The notes under the pieces are model-generated. The model was not told the origin of the DNA. It was given only the letters and a program-made list of their open reading frames with translations, and searched no databases. From Catonella massiliensis (GTDB lineage Bacteria > Bacillota > Clostridia > Lachnospirales > Lachnospiraceae), in contig NZ_JAEPRJ010000001.1 in assembly GCF_016651435.1 (NCBI RefSeq), forward strand, positions 1,426,001 through 1,490,000: a DNA stretch of 64,000 nucleotides, in the 5' to 3' direction. Below, one piece after another: positions 13,974 through 34,930 of this stretch (position 1 is the first letter of the stretch; every line of letters begins with the position of its first letter). The position numbers and the translations under genes were made by a program.

Positions 13974-14018
13974 TTTTTTCTCCAATAAGTATTTTGTTTA
14001 ACTACAATTAATTTAATA

Positions 14019-14924
14019 TCATCTTTTAGCTTCTCTAATAGCCTTATTTATGGTATTTAGCACCCTTTTCTTATCAGCGCTCCACAGTGGCTCTACCAGA
14101 AGCCTCTTATCTCCGTCTCCCGTCATCCTGTGAATCACCACGCTTTCAGGCAGGATTCTCAGACAGTTTATAAGAATTTCAGTATATTCATCAAGGCTTA
14201 GTATCTTAAAAGGCTTTTCCCTATATTCCCTCTCTAGTCTGGTATTCTTTAATATATGGAGGAGGTGGAGCTTTATTCCGTCTAACTTAGGATTGAGATT
14301 TGCTAAATACCTGACAGTTTCATACATATCTTTATCCGTTTCGCCCGGTAAGCCTAAAATCACATGGACTATCACTTCAATATTTCTCTTTTTAAGCTCT
14401 ATATAAGCCTTATTAAAGACGGACAAACTATAGCCCCTGTTAAATGCCTTTGCGCTGTCTTCGTGAATCGTCTGTAAGCCAAGTTCTATCCATACAGGTT
14501 TTATTTTATTAAGCTCGTTAAGCAGGTCAAGCATATCATCTTCCAAGCAGTCAGGCCTTGTTCCTATAGATAGGGCGGCAATCTCATCTCTTAAGATAGC
14601 AGTCTTAAAAATCCTGCCAAGTCTGTCTACATCTCCGTAAGTATTGGTAAATGACTGAAAATACGCAATATACTTCTTGTCTTCTTCCTTTATGTCCTTT
14701 GGAAATTTGCTTTTCACCCTATCTTTTGCCTCTTCAAGCTGTTCTTCTATCGGCTTTACCTTGGTGGCAAATTCCCCGGAACCGCCCTCAGAGCAAAAGC
14801 TGCAACCACCTCTTCCTGCCCTTCCATCCCTGTTTGGGCAACTACATCCTGTGGATAAAGACAACCTATATACCTTTGTGCCAAACTTTTCTTTGCAATA
14901 GTCTGACAGAGTCCTTATTATCAT
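14019..14924 (-). CDS. Radical SAM protein, TIGR01212/YhcC (YtqA) type
   Basis: A 301-residue protein. The cysteine cluster CSCPNRDGRAGRGGCSFC at about residues 28-45 is that of the YhcC/YtqA radical SAM group, which binds a 4Fe-4S cluster and S-adenosylmethionine. The conserved TYGDVDRL and IGTRPDCL segments follow, with LGLQTIHEDSAKAFNRGY further on. The reaction of the family is not established; tRNA or RNA modification has been suggested. AGGAGA lies 7 bases before the ATG. It is 72 bases after the end of the Shango helicase gene with no clear terminator between, so read-through from that operon is possible. Confidence 0.88.
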   Translation of the reverse strand: MIIRTLSDYCKEKFGTKVYRLSLSTGCSCPNRDGRAGRGGCSFCSEGGSGEFATKVKPIEEQLEEAKDRVKSKFPKDIKEEDKKYIAYFQSFTNTYGDVDRLGRIFKTAILRDEIAALSIGTRPDCLEDDMLDLLNELNKIKPVWIELGLQTIHEDSAKAFNRGYSLSVFNKAYIELKKRNIEVIVHVILGLPGETDKDMYETVRYLANLNPKLDGIKLHLLHILKNTRLEREYREKPFKILSLDEYTEILINCLRILPESVVIHRMTGDGDKRLLVEPLWSADKKRVLNTINKAIREAKR

Positions 14925-14996
14925 CTAACATTCTCCTAGTCCATGCTTTCCAGTAGCTTTTAATACCTTCTAATATCTTCTTAAAAGGCGAAACTT

Positions 14997-17147
14997 TTAT
15001 AAGCTAATCTCTTCTTTCATCTCCACCACATCAGTATATCTATCAACATACTGCTTGATTAAGAGGTTTTCAGGAACAAAGTCATTGTACTTCCCGAAGG
15101 TTTTAGCATCTTTAGGAACAATATAATCACTTTCCGTAACATCATTTTTTCTTATGTAGTCAAGTGCATCCATAAGTTCATTCTTTGTTACATTTTTAAC
15201 TATTAAAAACGGCCAGTAAGGCTCTGCAAATTTTCTATCAGGCAGGAGTTTATTTAAGATATAGTCTAAGGAATTAAGCGCTCTTGTGCCTAACCACAGA
15301 GATATCCCATAAGTATCCGGAGATATTTCAAAGATTTCTTTGGTTTCAAGCCCTGCACCTGCTGCTACCTGTCTTATTTCAGCAAGTCTCTTCTTTGCTC
15401 CATCTCCCAAATAAGGATACATGCAGTCAGTTGTTATTATCTCCTTCATTTTCTTAAGTACTCTGGTATGCTCAATAACCTCTCCTGTTCCATCCCAGAC
15501 TGTAGGCGGCTTACCCTCGGCACTCTTTACATAGATATTCTTATTCTCCTTATCTATTTCTGTAACCATCCAGCTCTTTCCCCCCAGAACAAAGGTTGTA
15601 TCAGGCTGCATAAGCCTTGTAAGAGTACCTATTTCGTGTGAGCCCTCTCTTACAGAATATTCCACATCAGATTCAAATACCGAATAAAAGTCATAGTGAT
15701 TTGCTATCTTTTCTCCCTCGGTACCTAAGATGAAGCCTCCGTTCTCAGTTCTCTCGATATGACCTATCTTAAGGAGATACCTCAATAATTCCTTGTAGTC
15801 CTCCTGTGTAACAAATCTAAAAGCATATTCACTAAGGAGTGACTGCGCCAAAACTTCCGGACTTGCCTCACCTCTACTATATAAAAAACTCATAGTCTGA
15901 TGGTAGAGTATACCAAATGGATATCGCTCAGGCAGCACCGGCTCTATATAATTTTCCCTATATAGTTCAATTAAAGCTATACACTTAATAAAGCTCCAAT
16001 TTATCGCCTTATAGAACTCAGTGGACTCACTTCGCTTTTCCTCTTCAAACAAAAAGCACATCTCAGAAACTCCACTTCGTCTCCCGCTTCTTCCAAGTCT
16101 TTGAGATAGGCTGGCTACTGACTTAGGACAGCCCACTTGTATTATTCTCTCCAAATCCCCCAAATCGATACCCAGCTCAAGGGTAACAGTCGCACCTGTA
16201 ACAAGGGGTAAGTCAGACAGCCTCATCTGTTCTTCCACAAACTCCCTGTCAGATGCTGAAATACTGCCATGATGAACCATAAATACATCAGGCTCTCCTC
16301 TTTTTTTAGCCACGTCCTTAAGATTAACAATGTTTTTTTCTACCTCAGAGCGCGCATTTGAAAATACAATGCTCTTCTTCCCTCTAGTTAGCTCATATAG
16401 ATTATCGTAAAAGGATATTTCGTTCTTCTTATCTTTTTCCTGAAAGGCAAATTCATAAAAATGCTCCACCATTACCACTGCTCTCCGCCTTTTAACACCG
16501 GTATCAGGAGTAATGCACTTTCTTTCTGTACCGCCGTTTAGCCAGTCTTCTGCACCCTCTATATCCCCAAGTGTTGCAGATAGTCCTATCCTTACAGGAA
16601 TCATGCCTGTTAGCTTTTGAAGCCTTTCAAGCAGGGAAATAAGCTGGGTTCCTCTTTCCTCACCTATGAAATTATGTACCTCATCAATTATGATAAATCT
16701 CAAATCAGAAAATAATTTAACCGCCTGTTCTTTCCTTCTCATTAGCATTGCTTCAAGGGATTCAGGTGTAGTCTGTAGTATGCCTGAAGGCTTTTTAAGC
16801 AGCTTATTCTTAGCAGTGGCAGACACATCCCCATGCCACTTTGTCACAGGAATATAGGCCTCCCGAAGCAGCTCCTCAATACGGGCAAACTGGTCATTAA
16901 TAAGAGCCTTAAGTGGAGCTATGTATAAGACTCCTACACTTTCACAGGGTTCATTATAAAGCTTAGTTATCACAGGCAGAAAGGCAGCCTCCGTCTTACC
17001 CGATGCGGTAGGCGTAGCTATGAGAAGATTGGAGTCAGTATTAAATATAACATCACAGGCCGCAACCTGTATTTCCCTTAGCTCTTCCCAGCCATTTCTA
17101 TAGATATAATCCTGTATAAAAGGAGCAAGTTTATCAAATGTACTCAT
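14997..17147 (-). CDS. sngC: Lhr-like DEAD/DEAH-box helicase, Shango SngC-type
   Basis: A superfamily 2 helicase of 716 residues: Walker A ATPTASGKT at residues 44-52, DEVH box in IIIDEVHNF near 152, motif III SATLGD near 195, and motif VI QRLGRSGRR near 350. A C-terminal region of Lhr/BrxHI type of about 300 residues follows. Such helicases load or move on DNA using ATP. It overlaps sngB by four bases (ATGA), so the two are translationally coupled. Together with the TerB-domain protein and DUF2791 ATPase upstream it forms the gene set known as the Shango anti-phage system. The helicase and ATPase also resemble the BrxHI/BrxD pair of BREX type 2, but no other BREX gene is present. Confidence 0.82.
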   Translation of the reverse strand: MSTFDKLAPFIQDYIYRNGWEELREIQVAACDVIFNTDSNLLIATPTASGKTEAAFLPVITKLYNEPCESVGVLYIAPLKALINDQFARIEELLREAYIPVTKWHGDVSATAKNKLLKKPSGILQTTPESLEAMLMRRKEQAVKLFSDLRFIIIDEVHNFIGEERGTQLISLLERLQKLTGMIPVRIGLSATLGDIEGAEDWLNGGTERKCITPDTGVKRRRAVVMVEHFYEFAFQEKDKKNEISFYDNLYELTRGKKSIVFSNARSEVEKNIVNLKDVAKKRGEPDVFMVHHGSISASDREFVEEQMRLSDLPLVTGATVTLELGIDLGDLERIIQVGCPKSVASLSQRLGRSGRRSGVSEMCFLFEEEKRSESTEFYKAINWSFIKCIALIELYRENYIEPVLPERYPFGILYHQTMSFLYSRGEASPEVLAQSLLSEYAFRFVTQEDYKELLRYLLKIGHIERTENGGFILGTEGEKIANHYDFYSVFESDVEYSVREGSHEIGTLTRLMQPDTTFVLGGKSWMVTEIDKENKNIYVKSAEGKPPTVWDGTGEVIEHTRVLKKMKEIITTDCMYPYLGDGAKKRLAEIRQVAAGAGLETKEIFEISPDTYGISLWLGTRALNSLDYILNKLLPDRKFAEPYWPFLIVKNVTKNELMDALDYIRKNDVTESDYIVPKDAKTFGKYNDFVPENLLIKQYVDRYTDVVEMKEEISL

Positions 17148-18472
17148 ATCTCAAATCCCTTAAATTCGCTCTTTATTTCCTCAGTATCTTCGCTTGACTT
17201 AGCGTAGTTAAAATCATCCCCTCCAAGTATGCCCTCAAGGGTTTTGTCAGGATTTTGAATGAGGATGTTAAGTATTTCTATAAAATCCCTTATTATCTCA
17301 CGTGGTGTAATATTCTGTCCTGCTCCTACCCTGCTAAATTCAGTTTTTATAAAATACTGCAAGGTTTCAGAGCTAAGCCCTGCCTCATACTTGTACACCT
17401 GAGCATGAATTTTCTCTAGCTTACAGATAAGAAAATACATTTCTTCAGGGGTAAGAGGTTTTAGCCTTATAATAGGAGACAGCAAATCTCTTGTACTTCC
17501 ATCAGAAAATCTACTGCTTTCAAGCCTCGACCTAAGTGCCTCGTAGCTAAATATACCTCTTCTTGTATCCTCAACACACTGAGGCGTACCTCCCATTATC
17601 ACTCCCAAGTACTTCGCCTTGCCCTGCATTATATCGTTGTATATTGTTAAGATTTTCTCATAATTATTTTGCCTTGATATAGAATTGGGAATCTTAAATA
17701 AATTGACGAGTTCATCAATCATCATTATCATCCCCTTATATCCTGCCTTTACTACGAACATAGAAAAGAGCTTAATATACTCATACCAGTCATCATCATT
17801 TATAATGACACCAACTCCAAGCTCCGCCTTAGCCTCAGTCTTAGTCCCATACTCTCCTCTAAGCCATTTTAAGGTTCTACTTTTAAGCTCTTCATCCTCA
17901 GTAACTACAGCTTTCCAGTAAAGGGAAATTATCCTTGCAAAATCAAAGCCATGTACTATGGTTTCAAGCTCATTTACAGTTTGATGAATCTTAATCTCAA
18001 CCAGTCCGTTAAGCTTCTCGCTGTCAGCAGTTAGTGAGTTTTCTGTCATCACTTCAGTTTTAAGTGCATTTATCCATTTGCTTAGTAAGAGACTTAAGGC
18101 TCCTCCATCGGGAGAGGTTTGAGTGGAGAGGTTTTTCATAAGCTCTTTGTAAGTAGCGAGCCCGTCACCCTTATTGCCTACAAGCCTTCGCTCAGGTGAA
18201 AGGTCAGCATCCACCACTACGAAGCCCCTTTCCATAGCATAGTTACGAATAGTCTGTAGCAAAAAACTCTTACCAGCTCCGTATTTCCCAACAACAAATC
18301 GAAATGAAGCACCTCCTTCGGATATCATTTCAATATCATTTAAAAGTGCATCTATTTCATCTTTCCTACCTACCGTTATATAGCCTAAGCCGGTGCGTGG
18401 CACAACTCCACCCTTAAGGGAATTTAGCAGGGTGTTTGCTATTCTAAGCGGTATTCTGTCTGTTACATTCAT
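17144..18472 (-). CDS. sngB: DUF2791-type P-loop ATPase (BrxD-like), Shango SngB-type
   Basis: An ATP-binding protein of 442 residues with Walker A VVGKYGAGKSF at residues 60-70 and Walker B MIMMIDELVNLF near 250. The N-terminal IPLRIANTLLNSLKGGVVP and the repeated LTPEEMYFL/ITPREIIRDF segments are those of the BREX-system ATP-binding family (PF10923). In defence contexts this ATPase pairs with an Lhr-like helicase; it may act as a loader or sensor. The start ATG overlaps the sngA stop (TAATG) and the stop overlaps the sngC start, so the three genes form one translational unit. Confidence 0.82.
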   Translation of the reverse strand: MNVTDRIPLRIANTLLNSLKGGVVPRTGLGYITVGRKDEIDALLNDIEMISEGGASFRFVVGKYGAGKSFLLQTIRNYAMERGFVVVDADLSPERRLVGNKGDGLATYKELMKNLSTQTSPDGGALSLLLSKWINALKTEVMTENSLTADSEKLNGLVEIKIHQTVNELETIVHGFDFARIISLYWKAVVTEDEELKSRTLKWLRGEYGTKTEAKAELGVGVIINDDDWYEYIKLFSMFVVKAGYKGMIMMIDELVNLFKIPNSISRQNNYEKILTIYNDIMQGKAKYLGVIMGGTPQCVEDTRRGIFSYEALRSRLESSRFSDGSTRDLLSPIIRLKPLTPEEMYFLICKLEKIHAQVYKYEAGLSSETLQYFIKTEFSRVGAGQNITPREIIRDFIEILNILIQNPDKTLEGILGGDDFNYAKSSEDTEEIKSEFKGFEI

Positions 18473-20472
18473 TACCTTCCTCCAACTGCCTCTTTTACTT
18501 CATTCAAATAATCTTCATAAATCTGTGGCTCACCTGATACATATTCAATCAGGTTATCACCTGTTATTTCAAGTGCCTTCTCATTTATTTCTTCAACAAG
18601 AAGTTCATAATTTGAGCCTGTTTTTTCACCATTTGCAAGATGTGAAATCAGGTCTTTTGCCTCGTTCGACAAGACATTTATAACTGCTTGGCAGCCTGAT
18701 AGCTCAGCATTATCATAATGTTTAGTTTCAATTTCAGGCTTATTACCTTCATCAGTTATTGTTTCTTTAGCAAAATCAAATATATTTAATTGTCCAATTG
18801 ACTGACTTTCATTTTCATAACTTCCATTCACTATATGTACCTCATCTATTTTAGAGATTTGATTTATAGATGGTAATGGTATTTTAGCAGCATTTGCATC
18901 ATTTTTTGACTTAATATCACTTTCATTATTAGATTGTACTTCAGCTTTGTTAATTAAGTTTATTTCTTGCTGTCTATAATTCTTCTTACAATTATATATT
19001 TCTGAAAGTTGTCCCTCATCTCTTTCGATATCCTCTTCAAGAATGAGCCTTTTAGCAGTTTCAATATGGTCTCTTTCAATATCTTTGATTTTGCTGAGGT
19101 CTATCTCAATAGGCTTAATTATTTCAAGTTTGCCATTTTTTATTACTATGTTTTCCTCTTTTATAAAGTCAGAAATTGCCTGAATTATAGTTTCTTCAAA
19201 ACTATCTTCATACAATGCCTCAAGCATTTTTCTTTTCCAGGAGCTTAACTTAGAAATATGGCTGCCGGCATAGTAACCATAATCACTTTTATCATTGAAA
19301 AAGCATTTCTCCACCTGTTTAATCGCAGGAGGCTGTAGACTTCTCTTTGAGCCAAACATTTTCCTCATATTAACTTCAGTAAGCTTTAATATGTATCCCA
19401 CAATAGCTTTGTATTTTCCTATGTCAGGAGCATCTATTTTACGGGACTTTCCATTGAATTTATAGGTCTCAATACCATCAAGCGGGACAACCTGCTCAAA
19501 AAAGTTAGAAGGCTTAACCACTGCTCCTCTAAAGAAAGAGTATATAATCTCACTTTGTTTAGCTGTGAACAATTTTTTGATATCTGTTTCAGCCTCATTC
19601 AAAGTCTGTGAAAGTCTCTCAAGTACAAAGCAGGCACATTTTTCGATAATCTCCTGATTGCCGGATTTATAAAACTGTCCATCAGTTATCCTAAAAGATG
19701 AAAAAATTTCAACTGCTTTTAAACTCTTCCACTTAAAGTCCATCATTTCAACATATAAGCGAGGTTCAAAACCATAGTAATTAATTGGCATCAAGTCTCT
19801 ATAATACGAAAAACCTTGTAAAAGTTCATTATGGTTTACAATATAGTAGTCCCTTATCCAGGTTCGAAAATGTCCATCGATGCTGTCATCATATTTTCTA
19901 AACTCAGTCCATATATATATTAGCTTTTCAATGGTCTCTTCTGCACACTTCGTACCTATCCCGTTTAATAGTTCATATACATAACAAAACAAGTAGGATA
20001 CAGATATATCCGTTACATTAGAGTTCCTAACCTTTGTCCTCCAAGTAAAATAGGTCCTAAGCTGATTATCATTCATCCTATCATAGGTAGTATAGTAGGC
20101 TTCCAAAGGATAGGCTTTGTCTGCATCGTCACTAAAGTCCTCCATGAATTTTGCCTGTTTTAGAAAGGTCTCAGTATCCCCAAGATACCAATCACTGCTT
20201 AAACCAGCCTTCTTGCCTAAAATTCTCATCTGACGGAAGGTGGAATAAGGCTCGCTCTCAGCCACAGGCTCTTGTAGCCTCCTCTCAATACTTTCTCTTT
20301 CGTACCTTCCATTTCCCTTGTTTTCTAAAGGATCGATAAGCAGATAACCGGAATCAGATTGTGCAGGCTTTCTAATGGCTAGTTTACGAGCCTTTTCCTC
20401 CATCTTTTCTTCATCAGTTTCATCAGGCAAAATTTTCCTTAAAAATTCCATTAAGGCTTCATTTCCAAGCAT
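18472..20472 (-). CDS. sngA: TerB-N/TerB-C domain protein, Shango SngA-type
   Basis: Residues ~70-330 resemble the TerB N-terminal domain (YYTTYDRMNDNQLRTYFTWR, VSYLFCYVYELLNGIG). The last ~80 residues resemble the TerB C-terminal domain (INEKALEITGDNLIEY). A variable charged linker joins them. TerB-type proteins are linked to membrane-associated stress and phage responses, but the biochemical role here is unknown. I take the ATG at 20470-20472 (666 residues) because CGGGAG precedes it and it begins one base after the stop of the small ORF 20474-20623. An in-frame ATG at 20502 would overlap that ORF and lacks a good ribosome site. First of three coupled genes. Confidence 0.8.
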   Translation of the reverse strand: MLGNEALMEFLRKILPDETDEEKMEEKARKLAIRKPAQSDSGYLLIDPLENKGNGRYERESIERRLQEPVAESEPYSTFRQMRILGKKAGLSSDWYLGDTETFLKQAKFMEDFSDDADKAYPLEAYYTTYDRMNDNQLRTYFTWRTKVRNSNVTDISVSYLFCYVYELLNGIGTKCAEETIEKLIYIWTEFRKYDDSIDGHFRTWIRDYYIVNHNELLQGFSYYRDLMPINYYGFEPRLYVEMMDFKWKSLKAVEIFSSFRITDGQFYKSGNQEIIEKCACFVLERLSQTLNEAETDIKKLFTAKQSEIIYSFFRGAVVKPSNFFEQVVPLDGIETYKFNGKSRKIDAPDIGKYKAIVGYILKLTEVNMRKMFGSKRSLQPPAIKQVEKCFFNDKSDYGYYAGSHISKLSSWKRKMLEALYEDSFEETIIQAISDFIKEENIVIKNGKLEIIKPIEIDLSKIKDIERDHIETAKRLILEEDIERDEGQLSEIYNCKKNYRQQEINLINKAEVQSNNESDIKSKNDANAAKIPLPSINQISKIDEVHIVNGSYENESQSIGQLNIFDFAKETITDEGNKPEIETKHYDNAELSGCQAVINVLSNEAKDLISHLANGEKTGSNYELLVEEINEKALEITGDNLIEYVSGEPQIYEDYLNEVKEAVGGR

Positions 20473-20473
20473 C

Positions 20474-20623
20474 TTAAGCTCCCGTATTATTTTTTTCCAC
20501 ATCTTTTTCTATCTCGCTTACAAACTTTATATCTCCCACCAAAAATAAAGAAAGACATAAATATAATAATGAAATTATTACCGGCGTCAATGCTACAACT
20601 ACTATTAAAACAATATCCCACAT
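20474..20623 (-). CDS. Predicted 49-residue single-pass membrane protein heading the Shango operon
   Basis: Not previously listed as a gene. ATG at 20621-20623 follows a strong ribosome site (GGAGG, 6-base gap). The product starts MWDIVLIVVVALTPVI, has one hydrophobic helix (residues 4-29) and a charged tail with SEIEKDVEKN. The stop TAA is one base before the sngA ATG (TAAGATG), typical of coupled genes. It is the first ORF after the SOS-box promoter. I recognise no family. A membrane anchor or partner for the TerB-domain protein is inferred. Confidence 0.6.
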   Translation of the reverse strand: MWDIVLIVVVALTPVIISLLYLCLSLFLVGDIKFVSEIEKDVEKNNTGA

Positions 20624-20682
20624 AAGAAACCTCCATGTATGATAATGTAGAGCAAATCAAAATATAAAATAAATTTTCAAAC

Positions 20683-20696
20683 AGAACAAAAGTTCT
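20683..20696 (-). promoter_or_regulatory. LexA-type SOS box (AGAAC-N4-GTTCT)
   Basis: The perfect 14-bp palindrome AGAACAAAAGTTCT contains GAAC-N4-GTTC, the core of Gram-positive LexA boxes (B. subtilis CGAAC-N4-GTTCG). It lies just downstream of the -10 box of the Shango promoter, where bound repressor would block transcription. Confidence 0.68.
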
Positions 20697-20704
20697 TATT
20701 GTCT

Positions 20705-20733
20705 AGTATAATATAATGATAGCATTATGTCCA
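20705..20733 (-). promoter_or_regulatory. Promoter of the Shango operon
   Basis: Minus strand TGGACA (20728-20733), 17-base spacer, TATACT (20705-20710). RNA would start near 20698, at the edge of the SOS box, about 75 bases before the 49-residue ORF. Confidence 0.7.
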
Positions 20734-20774
20734 TAGATAAAAGAAGTTTTATAAGAAAAATTGTATAACGACAT

Positions 20775-20807
20775 AAAAAAACAGCCACAGATATAATATC
20801 TGCAGCC
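20775..20807 (-). terminator. Intrinsic terminator of the rRNA-tRNA operon
   Basis: A twelve-pair stem (including G-U pairs) centred on CAGATAT-T-ATATCTG, followed on the minus strand by GTTTTTTT, 13 bases after tRNA-Leu. It separates the rRNA operon from the Shango promoter. Confidence 0.8.
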
Positions 20808-20819
20808 ATTCCTCTGTAA

Positions 20820-20905
20820 TGCCGGTGACCGGGGTCGAACCGGTACGGGTATTACTACCCACGGGATTTTAAGTCCCGGGCGTCTACCAATTCCGCCACA
20901 CCGGC
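20820..20905 (-). tRNA. tRNA-Leu (anticodon UAA)
   Basis: Class II tRNA with long variable arm; acceptor GCCGGTG/CACCGGC, anticodon loop CTTAAAA. Confidence 0.95.
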
Positions 20906-20925
20906 ATACTACATAAATGCAGTAA

Positions 20926-20998
20926 TGGGACCTACAGGGCTCGAACCTGTGACCCTCTGCTTGTAAGGCAGATGCTCTCCCAGCTGAGCTAAGATCCC
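20926..20998 (-). tRNA. tRNA-Val (anticodon UAC)
   Basis: Acceptor GGGATCT/AGGTCCC, anticodon loop CTTACAA. Confidence 0.95.
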
Positions 20999-21044
20999 AA
21001 AAATAATAAAAATTTCATATGAAATTTGTTATTAAATAAAAAAA

Positions 21045-21118
21045 TGGTTCTTCGGGGACTCGAACCCAGGACCGACCGGTTATGAGCCGGTTGCTCTAAC
21101 CAACTGAGCTAAAGAACC
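21045..21118 (-). tRNA. tRNA-Met (anticodon CAU), elongator type
   Basis: Acceptor GGTTCTT/AAGAACC, anticodon loop CTCATAA. The first acceptor pair is G-C, so it is not initiator tRNA; an Ile-lysidine tRNA is not fully excluded. The T stem CTGGG/CCCCG has a U50-C64 mismatch, which is unusual. Confidence 0.88.
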
Positions 21119-21123
21119 AAAAG

Positions 21124-21195
21124 TGACTCCAAGGGGATTTGAACCCCTGTTACCGCCGTGAAAGGGCGGTGTCTTAACCGCTTGACCATGGAGCC
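21124..21195 (-). tRNA. tRNA-Glu (anticodon UUC)
   Basis: Acceptor GGCTCCA/TGGAGTC, anticodon loop CTTTCAC. Confidence 0.95.
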
Positions 21196-21227
21196 ATACA
21201 CACAATTTCGACATCTAATATGTCAAG

Positions 21228-21299
21228 CTCCCCAAGTAGGGCTCGAACCTACAACATCACGGTTAACAGCCGTGCGCTCTACCATTGAGCTATTGAGGA
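21228..21299 (-). tRNA. tRNA-Asn (anticodon GUU)
   Basis: Acceptor TCCTCAA/TTGGGGA, anticodon loop CTGTTAA. First tRNA after 23S rRNA. Confidence 0.95.
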
Positions 21300-21351
21300 A
21301 TGAATATACCTTGAAAACTGCAACCGAATCAACATCTTTTCCTTTTACTTT

Positions 21352-33610: not shown

Positions 33611-34930
33611 TCATAGTTGAACTTCTACAAAGATATCGTATATTGCTTTAATCGCAAGCTCGAAGTCATCATTGTCTACTCCGATTATTATATTAAGCTC
33701 ACTTGAGCCCTGATCTATCATTCTTACATTGATGCGGGCATGGGCAAGGGCAGCAAATATTCTTCCCGCTGTACCCCTTACAGACTTCATGCCTCTTCCT
33801 ACTACAGCAATGAGGGCGATGCCTGATTCAATATCTATGGAGTCAGGCTCAGCAAGCTTGTGAATAGCAGATACAACCAACTGTTCTTTTGGCTCGAATA
33901 CCTTTTCCTCTACAAAAAGAGTCATTGTATCGATACCTGATGGCATATGCTCAAAAGAAATATCATTTTCTTCAAATGCCTGAAGCACCTTTCTGCCAAA
34001 TCCTATCTCCACATTCATCATGTCTTTATCGATATTAATGGCTGAAAATCCCTTTCTTCCCGCAATACCTGTGATGACATACTTTGACTTCTGTCCTGTG
34101 CTTTCAACTATCCAGCTTCCCGGATCTTCAGGAGCGTTGGTATTCTTGATATTTACAGGGATGCCTGCCTTTCTGACAGGGAAGATGGAATCCTCGTGGA
34201 GGACTGATGCTCCCATATAGGAAAGCTCTCGAAGCTCTTTATAGGTAATAATGTCAATTGGTTTTGGATCGTAAATAATTCTTGGGTCTGCAACAAGAAA
34301 ACCCGACACATCTGTCCAGTTCTCATATACATCAGCTTTCACAGCTCTTGCTACTATCGCACCTGTGATATCGGATCCTCCTCTTGAAAATGTCTTTATA
34401 GTTCCATCAGGCATAGCGCCATAAAAGCCCGGAATGACAGCATATTCTATCTTCTTAAGCTTCTTTGCAAGTATCTCGTTTGTCTTTTCAGAGTCAAAGT
34501 TGCCGTCTTTGTCAAAGAAGAGGACAGTAGCAGCATCCACGAAGGTGAAGTCGAGGTATTTTGCCATAATAATACCATTTAAGTATTCGCCTCTGGAAGC
34601 CGCATAATCCTTTCCTGCCTTTTCCTTAAGGTTTTTCTCGATAAGGGTGAACTCATCCTCGAGAGAAAGCTCTATGCCAAGTCCTTCTATGATTTCGTTG
34701 TATCTTGACTTAATATCTTCAAATTCTTCAGAAAAGTCCTCCCCACGAGAAGCCTTCTCCTGACATTTATACAGTAAATCTGTCACCTTTATATCAGCAT
34801 TGAACCTCTTGCCGGGTGCTGAAGGTATGGCATAATGCCTCTCCTTCTCAGACTTGATTATCTCTCCAACCTTCTTAAACTGTTCTGCATTTGCAAGCGA
34901 ACTTCCGCCAAATTTTACTACCTTTAACAA
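33611..34930 (-). CDS. lysC: Aspartate kinase
   Basis: First step of the aspartate pathway to lysine, threonine and methionine. The 439-residue product has VVKFGGSSLANAEQF at the start, the FSRGGSDITGA active-site segment near 175, and two C-terminal ACT domains (about 285-439) for feedback control. The start codon is TTG at 34930 with GGAGGG upstream. It has its own promoter, after the hom terminator. dapB, in the same pathway, is 16 kb away. Confidence 0.95.
   Translation of the reverse strand: MLKVVKFGGSSLANAEQFKKVGEIIKSEKERHYAIPSAPGKRFNADIKVTDLLYKCQEKASRGEDFSEEFEDIKSRYNEIIEGLGIELSLEDEFTLIEKNLKEKAGKDYAASRGEYLNGIIMAKYLDFTFVDAATVLFFDKDGNFDSEKTNEILAKKLKKIEYAVIPGFYGAMPDGTIKTFSRGGSDITGAIVARAVKADVYENWTDVSGFLVADPRIIYDPKPIDIITYKELRELSYMGASVLHEDSIFPVRKAGIPVNIKNTNAPEDPGSWIVESTGQKSKYVITGIAGRKGFSAINIDKDMMNVEIGFGRKVLQAFEENDISFEHMPSGIDTMTLFVEEKVFEPKEQLVVSAIHKLAEPDSIDIESGIALIAVVGRGMKSVRGTAGRIFAALAHARINVRMIDQGSSELNIIIGVDNDDFELAIKAIYDIFVEVQL

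Follow-up and report, generated by a model that had tools for sequence, protein, structure and literature searches.

Links between anti-phage defence and DNA damage are found in CBASS systems with CapH/CapP or CapW. AbpAB likewise couples defence to DNA damage and, according to the part of its report available to us, its activation by mitomycin C needs neither RecA nor LexA (PMC10732053). Shango, an anti-phage system reported in P. aeruginosa and E. coli, consists of three adjacent genes (sngABC) for a TerB protein, an ATPase and a DEAD/DEAH helicase, and in the available part of the report we found no description of its regulation or trigger (PMC10250203). The LexA/SOS regulon of C. difficile (lexA, recA, uvrB, ruvC and others) has GAACN4GTTY operators near promoters; the general mechanism of LexA is treated as established in the background of that paper, and the part available to us names no defence operon among the targets (PMC4234289). 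The Catonella operon described here carries the same type of site near its promoter and would differ from the C. difficile targets in being a defence operon, and from AbpAB in that its coupling to DNA damage would be transcriptional, through host LexA. Our searches of the open-licence literature, a scope that takes in few subscription papers or preprints, yielded no account of Shango being controlled by LexA; papers that pair LexA with phage defence concerned toxin-antitoxin or restriction systems, and one paper that names Shango mentions LexA in a reference on another subject.

The window analysed here is a 64-kb stretch of the 3.12-Mb genome of Catonella massiliensis, a species of the same genus as C. 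morbi. It holds the three Shango genes, of the same kinds as in P. aeruginosa PA14 and E. coli, side by side on the minus strand: sngA (18472..20472; 666 aa; TerB_N / TerB_C domains), sngB (17144..18472; 442 aa; BrxC/BrxD-type ATPase) and sngC (14997..17147; 716 aa; DEAD/DEAH helicase of the BrxHI/Lhr kind). The PADLOC models SngA, SngB and SngC matched at 1e-53, 2e-187 and 5.4e-235, respectively. Pfam gave BrxC_BrxD at 1.1e-163 for SngB, DEAD and Helicase_C for SngC, and TerB_N at 1e-28 for SngA, whose TerB_C match fell below its cut-off. The start of sngA was inferred from alignment; a mechanical start at 20502 would give 676 aa. With all three genes adjacent and co-directional, the locus has the gene content by which PADLOC recognises Shango, and the identity given in the preliminary description of this DNA stands.

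Compared with the PA14 and E. coli systems, the Catonella operon begins with an additional small membrane-protein-like gene (20474..20623, minus strand; 49 aa). This frame has a ribosome-binding-like GGAGG upstream, is hydrophobic in its N-terminal half by reading, and sits between the proposed operator and sngA. Among its 23 database matches, 15 have a length of 76 aa; judged from the 13 of the 23 sequences that were read, the longer matches carry an additional interior stretch of about 27 aa, which the 49-aa copy lacks in frame. The frame may represent an unlisted gene at the head of Catonella Shango. The C. morbi counterpart is split over two frames and appears degenerate. Between tRNA-Leu(taa) and the Shango promoter we found a terminator-like hairpin followed by a T run (20755..20830, minus strand; -25.6 kcal/mol, z -5.15 against 200 shuffles), which may separate the upstream tRNA/rRNA transcript from the operon; it is absent from the output of a simple terminator scan.

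The proposed operator, AGAACAAAAGTTCT (20683..20696), is a perfect palindrome of 14 bases containing GAAC-N4-GTTC, as had been noted, and is centred near +8.5 of a predicted promoter that it overlaps. The -35-like element TGGACA (20728..20733, minus strand) and the -10-like element TATACT (20705..20710, minus strand) are separated by a 17-base spacer and together score 10/12. Eight bases were counted between the -10 element and the palindrome, in agreement with the earlier placement of its start nine bases past the -10. The same description spoke of a good promoter; the pair is present as given, but the promoter call is weak taken alone, since seven promoter-like pairs reach 10/12 within 14000-21300 (7.3 kb), the Shango pair among them, and 27 pairs were observed there against 19.9 in shuffles. 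The call therefore leans on conservation in C. morbi. We also confirmed that AGAACAAAAGTTCT is the sole GAACN4GTTC of the window. This count was rejected as evidence, one such site per 64 kb being expected by chance (1 observed, 0.51 expected; at least one in 39/100 shuffles), so that the case rests on the place of the site and on comparison. The whole genome has eight GAACN4GTTC places; apart from AGAACAAAAGTTCT these comprise, by reading, five within long open frames, one in the promoter region of lexA and one intergenic site.

The closest comparison is with C. morbi (G003, whose stretch is identical to C. morbi ATCC 51271 over the shared 9.4 kb). Its Shango lies in the same chromosomal place as that of the window and is flanked by tRNA genes: tRNA-Asn, Glu, Met, Val and Leu on one side, and radical-SAM and RNase H genes with tRNA-Pro, Gly, Arg, His, Gln and Leu on the other. 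SngB is 92% identical between the two species, SngC 81%, and SngA 54% and 67% over two aligned parts. The promoters align without gaps, with 54 of 71 bases in agreement. Both the -35 and the -10 are identical, and the C. morbi palindrome, AGAACTGTTGTTCT, has one centre base of the 14 changed. Mid-spacer bases and five of the eight bases between the -10 and the palindrome have diverged, and the leader downstream of the palindrome aligns poorly. In this one comparison, that is the pattern of a kept operator. The palindrome is thus retained in the one syntenic ortholog that was found; its absence before orthologous operons had been named as a finding that would speak against SOS control. For a divergent copy in the same genus (G002), no box was seen in the 760 bases with which its contig begins, and the G004 copy, in which sngA was not placed, stood outside the operator comparison.

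The genome has its own lexA (239 bits against a family cut-off of 111) and recA (565 bits). Boxes were found in the recA promoter (CGAACAGATGTTTT and CGAACATTTGTTTG) and in the lexA promoter (CGAACAACCGTTCT, CGAACAAATATTCT and GGAACATCCGTTTG), and these carry GAACN4GTTY, which bears out the assignment of GAAC-N4-GTTC as the LexA core. Like boxes occur in C. morbi and G002, which together with the genome of the window are the three that bear lexA among the five genomes in the genus; some of these boxes have an A before GAAC (AGAACGTTTGTTTG, AGAACATCTGTTCG). All three genus genomes with lexA have a box within 300 bases before recA, and G001 and G004, with no lexA over the cut-off, have no GAACN4GTTY-type box within that distance, which may reflect loss of the SOS circuit inside a single genus. 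As for uvrB, no LexA-type box was seen in front of it in the genome of the window, and one was found there in G002.

We then considered how strong AGAACAAAAGTTCT is as a LexA box. A Catonella matrix built from 15 boxes gave it 12.4 bits, the top score of the window, and gave the C. morbi Shango site 12.1 bits; the 15 boxes themselves, each left out in turn, scored 12.35 to 20.5 bits, so that AGAACAAAAGTTCT is at the bottom of their range. The comparison with the genome's own LexA motif, which had been suggested as a check and in which a different motif would have spoken against SOS control, came out in favour of it: the core is the same, with the outer bases and the centre off consensus and the score at the low end. 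The match looks weak because the outer C...G is missing and the centre is all-A/all-T. On a second matrix, from 39 lexA-promoter sites chosen by a GAACN4GTTC core with at most one mismatch, it scored 14.4 bits. As far as the available part of the C. difficile study shows, LexA showed high affinity for AAGAACTAAAGTTCCT, TAGAACATAAGTTTTT and TGGAACTTTAGTTCTA in SPR, and these sites resemble AGAACAAAAGTTCT, including AGAAC half-sites; some other sites with T-rich centres (soj, potC, rpoB) gave no stable binding, and genes with lower-affinity LexA sites were expressed earlier (PMC4234289).

Upstream regions of sngA were surveyed at 85 loci with an sngA relative, 80 of them also with an sngB match and five without. 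The rows were the window, 80 loci (the best 80 of 193 relatives) and L033, L036, L038 and L040; L034, L035, L037 and L041 were left out as the same DNA as L043, L051, L076 and L045, and L032, L039 and L042 for having no sngA match. The scan ran from 500 bases before the leftmost sngA start to 60 after it, and 779 regions upstream of other genes at these loci served as controls. An exact GAACN4GTTC was found before sngA at 9/85 loci against 4/779 controls (Fisher 3e-7), and with GTTT also allowed at 23/85 against 15/779 (1.8e-15); dinucleotide shuffles gave means of 0.41 (maximum 4) and 1.7 (maximum 7), respectively. Among spacings of 0-12, only 4 stood out (nine loci; others 0-2), and among 12 half-site arrangements GAAC gave nine and the next best two. 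The lexA-promoter matrix found boxes of at least 12 bits at 30/84 sngA loci against 12/779 controls (p 1e-23; mean 1.1 and maximum 5 in 40 shuffles), L080 being out of this count with fewer than 100 bases upstream. The p values assume independent loci, an assumption that does not hold for related ones. Upstream of sngA, sites of the GAACN4GTTC class occur roughly twenty times as often as upstream of other genes. A scan before sngA homologues had been suggested when the site was first described, and its outcome was divided: C. morbi and 30 of the 84 loci have the box, whereas 54 of the 84 have none at 12 bits, and neither do L044-L047, the nearest relatives outside the genus.

One hit, in L068, was dropped as an operator; it lies inside a 374-aa frame on the opposite strand. 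This locus was taken out of the tree labels and the promoter table described below and is still in the counts 9/85, 23/85, 30/84, 19/22 and 25/29; without it, the matrix survey gave p 1e-22. Promoter-like pairs of at least 9/12 underlie 23 of 29 boxes; for positions picked at random from the regions concerned, the fraction was 0.206. In the window, C. morbi, L054/L058/L061/L063/L074, L094, L101 and L103/L111, the box covers the start or closely follows it; in L055, L056, L070/L120, L079 and L102 it covers the -35 or the spacer. Cultured isolates with the box include Acetatifactor muris DSM 23669, Lacrimispora celerecrescens 152B and C. morbi ATCC 51271, and in Clostridium sp. KNHs205, which has Shango, no box was found. 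The sequence ATGGAACAAATGTTTGG, shared by L054, L058, L061, L063 and L074, was considered as coding, a reading that we rejected, as -35/-10 pairs precede it; this suggests a promoter with a putative box at the start point in one related group.

We mapped the box label on a quick tree of SngB; of its 77 rows, 26 have a box, and the label required 17 changes, six of them forced by well-supported branches. Shuffled labels gave a mean of 21.9 changes, and 5/500 were as low as 17. These counts imply that the box has been kept among some close kin and gained or lost many times. It is also present in two Coriobacteriia assemblies (L052, L118). By the matrix label, lexA was over the cut-off in 25/29 boxed and 33/51 unboxed genomes (p 0.03), and by the planned exact-pattern label in 19/22 and 39/58 (p 0.07), many of the assemblies being incomplete. 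The link between box and lexA presence is weak; boxed genomes without a lexA match (L120 in G068, L053 in G091) and with only lexA fragments (L102, L052) were found.

Two further sets were drawn by SngB. Within class Clostridia, 37 of 391 genomes had an SngB-type match at 1e-60, not all of which need be Shango. Their 39 places, minus the window's own and 12 contig-edge or weaker matches, left 26, of which 22 were scored (three duplicates and one too short were out; four had no sngA match at 1e-3). The box was found in 4/22, a count that includes L202. By eye, the hits in L202 and L210 look coding, and that at -224 in L209 looks tRNA-derived; these were set aside as operators. An order set started from 54 genomes with an SngB match. 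Seven were already in earlier sets and two were excluded as contig starts (45 left), 15 had no long frame just before sngB and one was short upstream (29 scored), and four duplicates, one of them boxed (L336), were removed (25 counted); in this set the longest frame preceding sngB stood for sngA. Boxes were present in 4/25 against 4/91 controls at 12 bits (p 0.06) and 4/25 against 0/91 at 14 bits (p 0.002), all four loci in one genus (g361). The two sets together gave 8/47 against 4/91 (p 0.017), a weaker effect than in the main survey. AIPR genes, another defence family, had the box in 0/25 (best 11.5 bits) in genomes taken irrespective of lexA, with L310 (no frame found), L314 and L317-L319 (below cut-off, one genome) left out.

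On plasmids, one of two Paenibacillus copies has GAACGTGCGTTC, which merges into TATAAT, 160 bases upstream of sngA. The Catonella promoter bears a LexA-type box, whereas three gammaproteobacterial plasmid copies (two nearly identical upstream) have no E. coli-type box before sngA and one alphaproteobacterial copy has no box of the alphaproteobacterial type there, in the forms that we take to be those of these groups. The E. coli form is also given in the part of PMC4234289 available to us. An extension of LexA-box wiring to Proteobacteria was rejected on these four copies.

We consider it probable, from the combined sequence comparisons, that AGAACAAAAGTTCT is a LexA operator (SOS box) on the Shango promoter. 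The palindrome could instead be the operator of another repressor, such as a phage-type Cro/CI-S24 protein or an unknown regulator of GAAC half-sites; the genome does hold two more S24-type open frames, and AGAACAAAAGTTCT departs from the Catonella LexA consensus at the outer bases and the centre. No regulator gene was detected within the operon by PADLOC, Pfam or small-frame reading, however, neither S24 gene has such a palindrome within 300 bases before its matched domain, and the sngA boxes of other genomes fit the matrix made from lexA promoters, which leaves this alternative quite unlikely. That the palindrome is a chance feature without a role gains something from the shuffles, in which one such site per 64 kb is not rare, but the site is on a promoter, is kept in C. 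morbi amid diverged bases, and belongs to a class far commoner before sngA than elsewhere; chance is in our judgement a very improbable explanation.

A different alternative accepts LexA control and holds that Shango serves host DNA maintenance more than phage defence. The BrxD-type ATPase, the Lhr/BrxHI-type helicase and the TerB domain would suit a repair-type set, and the operon occupies the same chromosomal place in two Catonella species. Against this, the P. aeruginosa PA14 Shango inhibits phages, according to the part of the report available (PMC10250203), and the distribution is patchy, as the class Clostridia count of SngB-type matches illustrates. We regard this alternative as unlikely. 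SOS control of Shango, the central proposal of the preliminary description, is well supported as a prediction by the conservation in C. morbi, the same-core boxes of recA and lexA and the enrichment upstream of sngA.

With a LexA-type box on its promoter here and one in about a third of the compared clusters, Shango is probably armed by DNA damage. In an undamaged cell, a LexA dimer would cover the transcription start, immediately past the -10, and keep the operon low, blocking RNA polymerase start or escape from about +2 to +15. RecA filaments would form upon phage replication, prophage induction, entry of single-stranded DNA or damage of other kinds and would promote LexA self-cleavage; the operator would empty, and the small membrane protein and sngABC would be made. 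As its outer bases and centre depart from consensus, the operator would be a weaker one and is expected to be vacated at an early stage of SOS. For this locus we infer that LexA binds and represses, that damage induces the operon and does so early, and that phage defence benefits.

The proposal of LexA control is supported and reaches further than first claimed; it would make this operon a variant, in its regulation, of a defence system already known. On balance we favour the view that Shango belongs to the SOS regulon of Clostridia, and here and there to that of Coriobacteriia and Paenibacillus, with wiring gained and lost repeatedly and the operator over the start or over the -35/spacer by lineage. 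This would be a two-key arrangement: damage would lead to synthesis of the proteins via host LexA, and an infection signal would set them off. If the host-LexA switch does recur across lineages, Shango expression would be worth confining to DNA damage; mitomycin C and quinolones would be expected to switch the system on, as would the entry of single-stranded DNA or the induction of a prophage, which would then confront a freshly armed Shango in its own host cell.

Some observations were made alongside. Relatives of SngB occur in 692 of 72,556 plasmid records, all below 60% identity, and 542 of these plasmids are predicted conjugative, mostly from Klebsiella and Salmonella; the three gammaproteobacterial plasmids viewed have TerB, ATPase and helicase genes in the Shango order. 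Phage records gave no SngB match. SngB-type ATPases with no sngA match or preceding long frame were seen in L320, L326, L328, L344, L346, L347, L351, L352, L353, L356, L360 and L362, and possibly belong to other systems sharing the ATPase or to a different gene order. Within the window, CAACCAACTGTTCT (33874-33887) ranks second on the LexA matrix, with 11.4 bits. Elsewhere in the genome (G000:C1:215074-215085; L011 5075), the intergenic AGAACTTCTGTTCG scores 14.2 bits on the Catonella matrix and precedes CrcB-like and gyrase/topoisomerase-like genes, named by eye, which makes it a further candidate SOS target.
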